Shown here: piece by piece, positions 28,635 through 32,670 of the stretch
How the letters are laid out: every line of letters begins with the position of its first letter
Position numbering within the stretch: position 1 is the first letter of the stretch
Assembly: GCA_944385765.1 (NCBI GenBank)
Contig: CALWYL010000021.1
Location: 1 to 33,287 of the forward strand
From: an uncultured Oscillospiraceae bacterium
GTDB lineage: Bacteria > Bacillota > Clostridia > Oscillospirales > Oscillospiraceae
DNA length: 33,287 bases
Reading direction: 5' to 3'
Program-made: the position numbers and the translations under genes
Notes under the pieces: generated by a model
Seen by the model: only the letters and a program-made list of their open reading frames with translations
The model's database searches: none
What the model was told of the DNA's origin: nothing

Positions 28635-28709
28635 TCTTCCTCACTCGTTGTCACGCTCTGCCGCCCTCCCTGCCGGGCTCATCCCCGGCGGGAACTGACA
28701 TAGCGTTTA

Positions 28710-28738
28710 ATTGTACCACACCATATACCGTTTTTCAA
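28710..28738 (-). promoter_or_regulatory. sigma-A promoter of the smc-to-leuS operon
   Basis: Minus strand TTGAAA (28738-28733), 17-base spacer, TACAAT (28715-28710). Predicted start is near 28703. It is divergent from the GTPase-NYN promoter; the GC-rich 28741-28860 between them holds no gene that I can see. Confidence 0.75.
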
Positions 28739-28861
28739 GCGTAAAAGCCCCTCCCCGTGCCCAAACTTGCGCCGCCGCGCAAAAAAACGCCCGGGCCGCC
28801 CCGGACGGTCCATAATACATATCCCCGCTCCGCCCGCGGCGCGGGCCGCCAGCTCCACCTG

Positions 28862-28890
28862 TGGAAATCCTCTCTCCCCTGTGGTATAAT
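28862..28890 (+). promoter_or_regulatory. sigma-A promoter of the GTPase-NYN fusion gene
   Basis: TGGAAA (28862-28867), 17-base spacer, TATAAT (28885-28890) preceded by TGG (extended -10). CCTGTGG occurs twice, at 28858-28864 and 28878-28884, straddling the two promoter elements 20 bases apart. The leader is about 30 bases, too short for the leader-peptide attenuator found before mobile tet(M) genes. Confidence 0.7.
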
Positions 28891-28925
28891 GCGCTCAGCA
28901 TCTGACACGCGAGGGGAACTACACG

Positions 28926-31538
28926 ATGAAACGTCTGGTCATCGGCATACTGGCCCATGTGGACTCCGGCAAGACCACGCTCAGCGAGGCCCTGCTCTAC
29001 CGCTCCGGCGCCCTGCGCAAACTGGGGCGCGTGGACCACCGCGACGCCTTTTTGGACACCGACGCGCTCGAGCGCTCCCGGGGCATCACCATATTCTCCA
29101 AGCAGGCCCTGCTCAGGCTGCCGGAAGCCGAGCTGACGCTGCTGGACACCCCCGGCCACGTGGATTTCTCCGCCGAGGCGGAGCGGGCGCTGCAGGTGAT
29201 GGACTACGCCATCCTGGTCGTCAGCGGCACGGACGGGGTGCAGAGCCACACGGAGACGCTCTGGCGTCTGCTGGAGCGCTATCGCGTGCCCGTCTTCATC
29301 TTCGTGAACAAGCTGGACCTGGCGGGCGCGGACCGCTCCGCGCGCCTGTCCGAGCTCAGGGCGCGCTTCGGCTCCGGCTGCGTGGACCTCTCCGCCCCTG
29401 ACAGCGCCGACGACCTCGCGCTGTGCAGCGAGGAGCTCTTCGAGGCCATAACCTCCGGCCGCGCGCCCACGGACGCCCAGCTGGCCGCCGCCATATCCGC
29501 GCGCGGCCTCTTCCCCTGCTTTTTCGGCGCGGCGCTCAAGCTGGAGGGCGTGGACGAGCTGCTCGGCGCCCTCGGCCGCTATACCGAGCCCCTGCCCCCG
29601 CGCGGGGAATTCGGCGCGCGCATCTTCAAGGTCACCCGCGCCGAGGGCGGCGAGCGCCTCACCTGGCTCAAGGTCACCGGCGGCGAGCTGCGCGTCAAGT
29701 CCGAGTTGGAGTCGCGCCCGGACGCCCGCGCCGCCTGGCGCGGCAAGGCCGACCAGCTCCGGCTCTATTCCGGGCCCAAATATCAGCTTCTCAGCAGCGC
29801 CCTCCCCGGCACGGTCTGCGCCGTCACCGGCCTCGACTCGTCCTATGCCGGCGAGGGCCTGGGCTTTGAGCCGGACGCCGCCGCCCCCACGCTGGAGCCC
29901 GTCCTCGGCTACCATGTGCTGCTGCCCTCCGGCTGCGACGTGACCGCCGCCCTGCGCCAGCTGCGCGAGCTGGAGCAGGAGGACCCCCTGCTGCACGTCG
30001 TCTGGGACGAGCGCCTGGGCGAGGTGCAGCTGCAGCTGATGGGGGAGGTGCAGCTGGAGGTCCTGCAGAGCCTCATAGAGCGCCGTTTCGGCCTCAGGGT
30101 GGGCTTCGACGAGGGCGGTATTTTATATAAGGAGACCATCAACACCCGCGTGGAGGGCATGGGCCACTTCGAGCCCCTGCGCCACTACGCGGAGGTGCAT
30201 CTCATACTTGAGCCCGGCGAGCCCGGCAGCGGCGTGCAGCTGGCCGCCTCCTGCCCCACCGATTCCCTGGCCGCCAACTGGCAGCGCCTGGTGCTCACGC
30301 ACCTGGCGGAGAGGACCCACGTGGGCCCCCTCACCGGCTCGCCGCTCACCGACGTGAAGATAACCCTGGCCGCCGGCCGCGCGCACATAAAGCACACGGA
30401 GGGCGGGGACTTCCGCCAGGCCACCTACCGCGCCGTGCGCCAGGGCCTGCGCACCGCCCAGGCCCGCGGCGGCTGCGTGCTGCTCGAGCCCTGGTACGAT
30501 TTCACCCTGATTGTCCCCCAGGAGGCCCTGGGCCGGGCCCTGGCCGACATGCCCCGCCTCAGTGCCGAGTTCGCTCCCCCCGAGACCTCGGGCGGCATGG
30601 CGGCGCTCAGCGGTCGGGCGCCCGTGTCCGCCCTGCGCGGCTATGGGCGCGAGGTGTCCGCCTACACCCGCGGCCGCGGCCAGCTCAGCTGCCTCCCCGG
30701 CGGCTACGCCCCCTGCCACAACGCCGAAGAGGTCGTCGCCGCCTCCGGCTACGACGCCGACGCCGACACGGCCAACACCGCCGACTCGGTGTTCTGCAGC
30801 CACGGCGCCGGCGTGGTCGTCCGCTGGGACGAGGCGCCCTCGCGCATGCACATCCCCGGCGTCCTCTCCCGGGGCGAGCGCCTGGAGCGCGCCGCCAACG
30901 CGGAGGCGGAGGCCCCTGCCTCCCGCTCCGCCCGCGCCGAGGCCTACCGCGCCGCCCTGGCGGCCGACAAGGAGCTGATGGCCATCTTCGAGCGCACCTA
31001 TGGCCCCATCCGCCGCGACGCCGCGCAGGCCATGCGCCCGGTGGAAAAGCGCCCGCGCCCGGAGAGCTCCGCGCCCCGCCGCCCTGCCGCCCCCCGGCCC
31101 GAGGGCCCGGAGCACCTGCTGGTGGACGGCTACAACGTCATCTTCGCCTGGGACGAGCTCAAAAAGCTGGCCGAGGGCAATCTGGACGCCGCGCGCCAGC
31201 GCCTGATGGACATACTGTGCAACTACGCCGGCTACCGCCGCTGCGTGCCCATACTGGTGTTCGACGCCTATAAGGTCAAGGGCGGGGAGCGCGAGGTGGA
31301 GCGCTATCACAACCTGTACGTCGTCTACACCAAGGAGGCGGAGACGGCCGACATGTATATAGAAAAGGCCACGCACGAGATAGCCCGCCGCTACCGCACG
31401 CGCGTCGTCACCTCGGACACCACGGAGCAGCTGATAATCCTGGGCAACGGCGCCCTGCGCGTCTCCTCCCAGGCCTTTGAGGAAGAGGTCCGCGCCACCG
31501 AATCCGAAATCCGCACCCTCCTGGCAAACAGCACCTGA
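28926..31538 (+). CDS. Tet(M)/EF-G-like ribosomal GTPase fused to Rae1/YacP-type NYN endoribonuclease
   Basis: Fusion protein of 870 residues. Residues 1-225 form a translational GTPase domain: G1 AHVDSGKTT (10-18), G2 RGITI (52-56), G3 DTPGH (74-78), G4 NKLD (128-131). Domains II-V follow to about 640, with EF-G/Tet(M)-type EPWYDFTLIVP and RGYGREVSAYTRGRG. After an Ala/Pro/Arg-rich linker (about 650-728, containing ELMAIFERTYGPI), residues 729-865 are an NYN nuclease very like Bacillus subtilis YacP/Rae1: LLVDGYNVI (Asp733), ILVFDAYKVKG (Asp780), KEAETADMYIEK (Asp809) and TSDTTEQ (Asp831). Rae1 cleaves mRNA in the ribosomal A site; Tet(M) relatives bind the same region. The ATG at 28926 follows GAGGGGA. 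Tetracycline resistance is possible but not shown. Confidence 0.93.
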   Translation: MKRLVIGILAHVDSGKTTLSEALLYRSGALRKLGRVDHRDAFLDTDALERSRGITIFSKQALLRLPEAELTLLDTPGHVDFSAEAERALQVMDYAILVVSGTDGVQSHTETLWRLLERYRVPVFIFVNKLDLAGADRSARLSELRARFGSGCVDLSAPDSADDLALCSEELFEAITSGRAPTDAQLAAAISARGLFPCFFGAALKLEGVDELLGALGRYTEPLPPRGEFGARIFKVTRAEGGERLTWLKVTGGELRVKSELESRPDARAAWRGKADQLRLYSGPKYQLLSSALPGTVCAVTGLDSSYAGEGLGFEPDAAAPTLEPVLGYHVLLPSGCDVTAALRQLRELEQEDPLLHVVWDERLGEVQLQLMGEVQLEVLQSLIERRFGLRVGFDEGGILYKETINTRVEGMGHFEPLRHYAEVHLILEPGEPGSGVQLAASCPTDSLAANWQRLVLTHLAERTHVGPLTGSPLTDVKITLAAGRAHIKHTEGGDFRQATYRAVRQGLRTAQARGGCVLLEPWYDFTLIVPQEALGRALADMPRLSAEFAPPETSGGMAALSGRAPVSALRGYGREVSAYTRGRGQLSCLPGGYAPCHNAEEVVAASGYDADADTANTADSVFCSHGAGVVVRWDEAPSRMHIPGVLSRGERLERAANAEAEAPASRSARAEAYRAALAADKELMAIFERTYGPIRRDAAQAMRPVEKRPRPESSAPRRPAAPRPEGPEHLLVDGYNVIFAWDELKKLAEGNLDAARQRLMDILCNYAGYRRCVPILVFDAYKVKGGEREVERYHNLYVVYTKEAETADMYIEKATHEIARRYRTRVVTSDTTEQLIILGNGALRVSSQAFEEEVRATESEIRTLLANST

Positions 31539-31564
31539 AGCGGCCCCCCGGATAGTTCCCTTCA

Positions 31565-31606
31565 CACACGTGCGATGAGTCCCGGCTCATCGCACGTGTG
31601 CTTTTT
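31565..31606 (+). terminator. Strong intrinsic terminator of the GTPase-NYN gene
   Basis: Perfect 15-bp stem CACACGTGCGATGAG / CTCATCGCACGTGTG (31565-31579 and 31586-31600), loop TCCCGG, then C and TTTTT. It isolates the fusion gene from the XRE-sigma genes downstream. Confidence 0.92.
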
Positions 31607-31804: not shown

Positions 31805-32161
31805 ATGGAAATTGATTACGCAGAGATTGGCCGCAACATCCGCGAGCATCGGCGCCGTTGTGGCATGAAGCAGAAGGAGCTGGCCGAGCTTATCAACGTC
31901 TCCGACCAGCACATCAGCCACATCGAGAACGGCTACACCAAGCTGAGCCTGGTCACCCTGGTGGCCATATGCAATGTGCTGGAGGTGGACTGCAACACCA
32001 TCCTGGGCACCAGCCTGGAGGGCGCCCAGCACACGGCCCTCCAGAACCGGCTGATAAATACCATCTCGACAATGGATACGCCCAAGCTCAAGCTGCTCTC
32101 GGATTTCTGCAAGACGCTCTCGCGGTACGAGGTAGAGACCGCGATAAAGTATAAGAAATAG
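31805..32161 (+). CDS. XRE-family helix-turn-helix regulator
   Basis: Protein of 118 residues. The N-terminal HTH_3 domain (about 8-62) shows IREHRRRCGMKQKELAELI, then VSDQHISHIENG as the recognition helix region. The C-terminal 50 residues are helical, as in SinR/Xre-like regulators with a dimerisation tail. GGAAAG lies 11 bases before the ATG, a loose ribosome binding site. Base composition is lower in GC than upstream genes. It precedes an ECF-like sigma factor by 38 bases, and the two are probably co-transcribed; it may repress the unit through the upstream repeats. Confidence 0.92.
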   Translation: MEIDYAEIGRNIREHRRRCGMKQKELAELINVSDQHISHIENGYTKLSLVTLVAICNVLEVDCNTILGTSLEGAQHTALQNRLINTISTMDTPKLKLLSDFCKTLSRYEVETAIKYKK

Positions 32162-32199
32162 ATATCAACTGCGGAGAAAAGGAGAAAGAGTGGTGTTTT

Positions 32200-32670
32200 A
32201 TGGTAGAAGAAGATTTCATCGGGAAACTGTATCTTGAGCTGTACGAGACCATGTTCAGCATGGCTTTCCACAAATTGCACGATGAGGAGCGGATTCAGGA
32301 GGTCATCCAGGAGACCTTTCTCTTCGCCATGTACCGCCGCGAGGAGCTGGAGCATCACCCCAATCCACAGGGCTGGCTCATGAACACCTTAAAATTCATG
32401 ATTTCCAATGAACGTCGCAGGGCCGTGAACACACGTGTCGTCTGCGACGAATCCATATATGACTATCCCGCCGCCGTCCCTGAAGAGCCCCTCGAGGACT
32501 CTCTGCCCATCGGCCTCACCGAGGGTGAGCGGAACATCCTCATCTGGCGCTTCGAGCGCCAGCTCAGCCACCGCGAAATGGCCGCCCTGCTCTCCATCAC
32601 GGAAGTGAATTGCCGCAACCGCCTCTCCCGCGCGCTCAAGAAGTGCCGCAAGCTGCTCGGCTATCCCTGA
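32200..32670 (+). CDS. ECF-like RNA polymerase sigma factor
   Basis: Sigma factor of 156 residues with only regions 2 and 4. Region 2 spans about 5-70 (FSMAFHKLHDEERIQEVIQ, then FLFAMYRREE and the GWLMNTLKFMISNERRR segment). Region 4 spans about 102-152 (LTEGERNILIWRF, then LSHREMAALLSITEVNCRNR as the helix-turn-helix). The ATG at 32200 is the in-frame start; AAAGGAG lies rather far upstream (about 15 bases). It is followed after 75 bases by a single-pass membrane protein, the usual place for an anti-sigma factor. Confidence 0.88.
   Translation: MVEEDFIGKLYLELYETMFSMAFHKLHDEERIQEVIQETFLFAMYRREELEHHPNPQGWLMNTLKFMISNERRRAVNTRVVCDESIYDYPAAVPEEPLEDSLPIGLTEGERNILIWRFERQLSHREMAALLSITEVNCRNRLSRALKKCRKLLGYP

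Follow-up and report, generated by a model that had tools for sequence, protein, structure and literature searches.

Gene organization and domain architecture

The window, that is, the whole 33,287-nucleotide stretch analysed from an uncultured Oscillospiraceae bacterium, carries on its forward strand a single uninterrupted open reading frame at positions 28926 to 31538, which runs from ATG to stop and encodes a protein of 870 residues. From the N terminus, the protein comprises a five-domain EF-G/Tet-like GTPase (residues 4 to 599), a C-terminal module (residues 609 to 642), a linker, and an NYN nuclease domain (residues 731 to 864). The features of the gene and its surroundings are as follows.

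28862..28890, forward strand: promoter-like site TGGAAA-17-TATAAT with extended TG (consensus match only; 2 in the region against 0.4 expected)
28926..31538, forward strand: complete fusion gene, 870 aa (open reading frame and Pfam)
28935..29588, forward strand: G domain (GTP-binding), residues 4 to 221 (Pfam PF00009 GTP_EFTU, E 4e-46)
28953..28976, forward strand: P-loop AHVDSGKT, residues 10 to 17 (Lys16 kept in 121/121 fusions and 24/24 unfused proteins)
29145..29159, forward strand: G3 motif DTPGH with the catalytic His78 (His78 kept in 121/121 fusions and 24/24 unfused proteins)
29952..30104, forward strand: EF-G-like domain III, residues 343 to 393 (Pfam PF14492 EFG_III)
30120..30461, forward strand: EF-G-like domain IV, residues 399 to 512 (Pfam PF03764 EFG_IV)
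30384..30416, forward strand: domain IV tip loop HxKHTEGGDFR, residues 487 to 497 (replaces YSPVSTPADFR of TetM; Lys489 at the Pro509 position)
30477..30722, forward strand: EF-G-like domain V, residues 518 to 599 (Pfam PF00679 EFG_C)
30750..30851, forward strand: subfamily-specific C-terminal module YDxxxDxxNxxxSVFCxHGAGxxVxWDxxxxxMH, residues 609 to 642 (conservation; unfused GTPases stop right after it)
30861..31001, forward strand: linker helices, residues 646 to 662 and 667 to 692, including the motif ELxxIFERTYG (structure model and conservation)
31002..31115, forward strand: flexible linker part, residues 693 to 730, with disordered core 697 to 720 (pLDDT <50 at 697 to 720)
31116..31517, forward strand: NYN_YacP (Rae1-type) nuclease domain, residues 731 to 864 (Pfam E 9e-47; structure match 5mq8)
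31125..31127, forward strand: Asp734 (121/121 fusions, 29/29 stand-alone YacP)
31263..31265, forward strand: Asp780 (121/121 fusions, 29/29 stand-alone YacP)
31350..31352, forward strand: Asp809 (121/121 fusions, 29/29 stand-alone YacP)
31416..31418, forward strand: Asp831 (121/121 fusions, 29/29 stand-alone YacP)
31565..31600, forward strand: strong terminator-like hairpin of 16 pairs followed by CTTTTT (sequence scan)

An earlier note on this DNA had described a GTPase continuing without a break into a complete NYN nuclease, and the single 870-residue frame, the Pfam domains and the structure matches bear this out. The nuclease domain scored 159.5 bits against a curated Pfam cut-off of 24.6 for NYN_YacP. 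The solved structures nearest by sequence were TetO, TetM and EF-G for the first part of the protein and YacP (5mq8/5mq9) for residues 731 to 863. An AlphaFold2 model built on a 109-sequence alignment of fusions reached a mean pLDDT of 90.9, with disorder limited to residues 697 to 720, and a Foldseek search with the predicted structure matched EF-G/EF-2 across approximately 690 columns. In the model, the linker of the window protein consists of two helices and about 24 disordered residues; in the set of fusions, the distance from His642 to the nuclease ranges from 68 to 134 residues (median, 79) and the linker is poorly conserved. The same frame recurs in hundreds of genomes that are independent of each other, which excludes both chance and an assembly error. 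Long antisense frames (429 and 480 aa) lie opposite the fusion at 28707-31565 on the reverse strand; they are not genes and are explained by the 71% G+C content of the fusion gene.

The −10 element of the promoter-like site ends 35 nt ahead of the ATG, and the gene has a ribosome-binding-site-like sequence, AGGGGAA. Given its own promoter-like and terminator-like sites, the fusion gene probably forms a transcript of its own. With 35 nt from the promoter-like site to the start codon, a tet(M)-type leader peptide or attenuator does not fit, and a search for a regulatory RNA or attenuator upstream of the gene gave no Rfam match there. The gene is flanked by smc/ftsY on one side and by genes for an HTH regulator and a sigma factor on the other. 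The latter pair lies just past the terminator (31805-32670), with the gene for a small HTH regulator of the Cro/C1 type ahead of that for an ECF-like sigma factor, and resembles a cassette that is unrelated or belongs to a mobile element. Among the genes flanking 143 loci, no conserved operon partner was found; the commonest flanking clusters were generic ABC transporters and response regulators in variable positions.

Distribution and conservation of the fusion

The distribution was evaluated in a census of 293 genomes spread across Clostridia, the class of the window, each at least 90% complete. NYN_YacP was present in 192 of them, and the GTPase subfamily, as detected with a model of domains IV and V plus the C-terminal module, in 123. 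Frame length divided the latter into 103 genomes with the fusion, which is the spread that the earlier note had left to a domain search, and 20 with an unfused GTPase, a class defined by GTPase frames of 624 to 729 aa or ended by the contig end. The GTPase was less frequent in a phylum-wide sample (21 of 299 genomes).

Both halves of the protein are complete and strictly conserved. Invariant residues of the 121 complete fusions include Lys16 and His78 in the GTPase and Asp734, Asn737, Asp780, Asp809, Glu813, Ser830, Asp831 and Gln835 in the nuclease, and a check for loss of nuclease residues among these homologs revealed none. All four acidic residues named in the earlier note are thus present, and its numbering was correct for Asp780, Asp809 and Asp831; the residue that it called Asp733 is Asp734. 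For the tip of domain IV, 80 loci had been retrieved by motif patterns within that domain and are biased for its motif; in the bias-free subset (n = 78), Thr491 was found in 78/78, His490 in 76/78 and Lys489 in 70/78 sequences. The nearest named relative is that of Gemmiger formicilis, which is 66% identical in the GTPase columns and 77% identical in the NYN domain.

Within the window's own family (G013-G036), any YacP was found in 11 of 24 genomes and the fusion was missing from 13 of 24, which indicates that it is dispensable; it is patchily lost there. In one complete genome (G246, L076:4044-6764), the GTPase part of the fusion frame contains one in-frame stop, and this copy is either a pseudogene or a sequencing error. 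A phage origin was also considered, as two records named 'Bacteriophage sp.' (MT835563, our L233, and MT835514) carry the fusion, and was rejected: in MT835563, which is marked UNVERIFIED, the flanks are bacterial, with genes for prolyl-tRNA synthetase and a carbohydrate kinase, and this record is probably mislabelled host DNA.

Patchy presence within the family, together with the fact that ribosome-dependent mRNases are a known toxin theme, would fit an immunity or self-poisoning device, either for phage defence or as a toxin-like ribosome-dependent mRNase. We consider this highly improbable, since no PADLOC defence family matches the fusion at E 0.001, its surroundings contain no antitoxin or defence neighbourhood, and it occurs in a third of the class with its halves apparently inherited together.

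The fusion takes the place of stand-alone yacP

The genome of the window (97% complete) has exactly one YacP, which is the fusion. A check for a separate yacP beside a decayed fusion nuclease found none in this genome, and all four aspartates of the fusion are intact. In the census, a stand-alone yacP was absent from 102 of the 103 fusion genomes and present in 89 of the 190 others (Fisher P = 5e-20, a nominal value that ignores the relatedness of genomes), a strongly positive outcome of the check suggested in the earlier note, whether genomes with the fusion lack a separate copy. Only G339 carries both. Apparent second YacP copies in G177, G230 and G264 were discarded as partial matches under the cut-off. 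Among the 89 YacP genomes without the fusion, all 58 for which frames were listed had frames of stand-alone size, and in the phylum sample a second YacP copy was found in none of the approximately 16 fusion genomes listed. The fused and stand-alone forms alternate between genomes inside several families (e.g., f42, f43, f48 and f67). With a stand-alone yacP in just 1 of 103 fusion genomes, the fusion is these bacteria's only YacP/Rae1-family protein. As far as could be checked, this exclusion of yacP by the fusion is new.

The Rae1 of Bacillus subtilis has about 170 aa, is not joined to another protein, and its gene is co-transcribed with yacO. The B. subtilis protein (5mq8/5mq9) and the fusion share an NYN_YacP domain with all four aspartates; in contrast, the nuclease studied here forms the C terminus of a GTPase, in frame, and has no yacO-like neighbourhood. 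Rae1 is a ribosome-dependent endonuclease that cuts mRNA in the A site, with translation-dependent mRNA activity (PMC10100781, PMC6613710).

The GTPase lies outside the tetracycline resistance family by sequence criteria

The architecture had been described earlier by Atkinson 2015 (PMC4342817) in ten clostridial species, with the same domain arrangement and in the same bacterial class, and the gene of the window is a further member of this known, uncharacterised kind. The earlier note had stated that no functional description was known: the architecture itself had already been published, and a functional or experimental study was still not found in our literature search, which did not extend to the primary Rae1 papers, so that further mentions are possible. 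Atkinson 2015 filed these proteins as Tet resistance proteins and proposed a role in antibiotic resistance, whereas here about a third of the Clostridia genomes carry them, and their GTPase falls outside the resistance family by the NCBI cut-offs.

Under the resistance proposal, the protein would belong to the tetracycline ribosomal protection proteins, with the extra RNase domain enhancing or altering the resistance. The fusion does share with TetM/TetO a five-domain EF-G-like GTPase with intact G motifs, tet_protect and Otr(A) are the families that it matches best, and RefSeq labels some members 'TetM/TetW/TetO/TetS family'. Nevertheless, the matches are under all NCBI cut-offs. On the NCBIfam tet_protect model the fusion GTPase scored 355 bits, roughly half of the cut-off of 775, where a real TetM reached 879 and unfused relatives 380 and 427; its identity to TetM/TetW is 28 to 31%. 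TetM displaces tetracycline via Pro509, which sits at the tip of loop 3 in domain IV (PMC7456112, PMC8161019), and this position is Lys489 in the fusion, with proline in 0 of 145 relatives. Compared with TetM/TetO, the fusion has a rebuilt domain IV tip, another C-terminal module and an attached nuclease. Moreover, most members are chromosomal in a neighbourhood that is not conserved, the plasmid cases are few and on megaplasmids, and the window gene lacks the room for a leader peptide. Taken together, we regard the resistance proposal as improbable, and the suggestion of the earlier note that the GTPase is Tet(M)-like in function, acting on drug-bound ribosomes, is not supported, given the scores below the NCBI cut-offs and the missing drug-displacing Pro509.

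Nor does the GTPase score as an EF-G. EF-G and the EF-G-like PRK12740 proteins have the fold and domain order in common with the fusion, but the fusion fails both cut-offs (230 bits on the EF-G model TIGR00484, against a cut-off of 659), and the window's genome has separate genes for each, a normal EF-G (L234) and a PRK12740-type relative. The latter (L235, G000:C77:2602-4386) belongs to subfamily PRK12740.1-5 and reaches the contig end. The tip HxKHTEGGDFR and the C-terminal module are common to fused and unfused members. From these comparisons, the GTPase is best classified as a distinct subfamily outside the tetracycline ribosomal protection family, a separation that is new as far as could be checked.

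Proteins lacking Pro509 are nonetheless named as TetM/TetW/TetO/TetS family in RefSeq/PLSDB, as in an Agathobacter rectalis plasmid (L080:5980-8781) and Ligilactobacillus salivarius megaplasmid records; this naming likely over-calls resistance genes.

Unfused relatives and history of the fusion

Unfused GTPases end immediately after the C-terminal module (residue 642), which suggests that the fusion arose by adding a linker and a nuclease to an already complete GTPase end. The unfused GTPase of an L. salivarius megaplasmid (L078) has 48.5% identity to the fusion and the same domain IV motif and module; like those of the 20 Clostridia genomes, it stops right after the module, without a nuclease. 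The gene (L078:5529-7920) is in divergent orientation beside a second rpsN (S14) and a gene putatively for metal homeostasis, with transposase genes on either side.

In the GTPase tree, 23 unfused clostridial-type proteins cluster together (SH-aLRT 90), as a sister group to the fused ones, which make up the rest. The unfused L. salivarius protein sits among the fused ones with weak support, a placement that would mean that it lost the nuclease secondarily. A single clade was not rejected for the fused GTPases (p-AU 0.47) or for the fused NYN domains (p-AU 0.57). A single ancient fusion followed by mostly joint inheritance is the simplest reading of these trees, although not proven.

Of the 20 Clostridia genomes with an unfused GTPase, 13 have a separate yacP and 7 have no YacP at all (G234, G343, G084, G087, G113, G127 and G259). 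A strong co-occurrence of the unfused GTPase with stand-alone yacP was tested and did not emerge: the association is weak (13/89 versus 7/101; P = 0.10), indicating that the GTPase and Rae1 are not obligate partners. The genomes with an unfused GTPase and zero YacP imply that the GTPase must also serve some function where Rae1 is absent.

A GTPase role of its own is also what would be expected if the fusion tied together two independent activities, with the GTPase as a translocation- or assembly-type factor and the NYN domain maturing or degrading rRNA or tRNA, with no cutting of mRNA in the A site. The substrates first proposed for NYN domains were rRNA/tRNA (cited in PMC4342817), and the linker is long and poorly conserved. 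Against this, stand-alone Rae1 is replaced nearly one for one by the fusion, the NYN core of the fusion is indistinguishable from stand-alone YacP in its conserved residues, and a translation-dependent mRNA activity has been demonstrated for Rae1 (PMC10100781, PMC6613710). We therefore consider two independent activities rather unlikely.

Putative mechanism and implications

The sequence evidence points to the fusion as a putative means of bringing an mRNA cutter to ribosomes, not a resistance variant. GTPase-assisted, ribosome-dependent cutting of mRNA by the fusion is, in our assessment, evenly poised between true and false. We infer ribosome binding, an mRNA substrate, cutting in the A site and coupling to GTP hydrolysis; a role in ribosome surveillance is the best available guess and is helped by the replacement of stand-alone Rae1 by the fusion.

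EF-G-like GTPases occupy the neighbouring factor site and place domain IV in the A site. In a protein that joins the two, the GTPase could recruit the nuclease to ribosomes that have an empty A site. The gene product would then be a chromosomal, single-gene translation factor, in which the host's Rae1 is covalently joined to a dedicated EF-G-like GTPase. In its GTP form, the GTPase would dock at the factor site when a ribosome has stalled with its A site empty, and the domain IV tip (HxKHTEGGDFR) would probe the decoding centre. Hydrolysis of GTP would pull domain IV back, and the NYN domain, on its helical and partly disordered linker, would then enter at or near the A site and cut the mRNA, as free Rae1 does in B. 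subtilis. If domain IV and the nuclease were to act in the A site at once, a steric problem would arise, as both claim the same space. Since both cannot fill the A site, the cut must follow the withdrawal of domain IV or lie elsewhere on the mRNA; judging from the structure model, the linker would permit such a movement of the NYN domain. Against the model, Rae1 of B. subtilis functions with no GTPase of this kind. In addition, the window's genome encodes tmRNA and RqcH, and the fusion is thus not its sole rescue system.

A more specific version, in which the unrecognised subfamily of translational GTPases is a loading factor for Rae1 that locates stalled ribosomes, uses GTP to clear or test the A site and passes the mRNA to the tethered nuclease, is possible, and we put it forward tentatively. 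In eukaryotic no-go decay, stalled ribosomes are the target of an endonuclease and of a rescue complex that contains a GTPase. If the GTPase is a loading factor, the fusion would be a bacterial counterpart of that pathway in logic, not in ancestry, and the unfused GTPase would play this part for a separate Rae1 or for some other nuclease.

The reclassification of the GTPase matters even if the proposed mechanism is wrong, and resistance-gene counts of the gut microbiome can be inflated by the tetracycline-resistance names that RefSeq gives to some members of this subfamily, which lacks the defining Pro509. If the mechanism is right, the entry of Rae1 into the A site would become directly accessible, since the delivery factor and the nuclease lie in one chain, and about a third of Clostridia, common gut species included, would run a GTP-driven, ribosome-linked mRNA decay machine.
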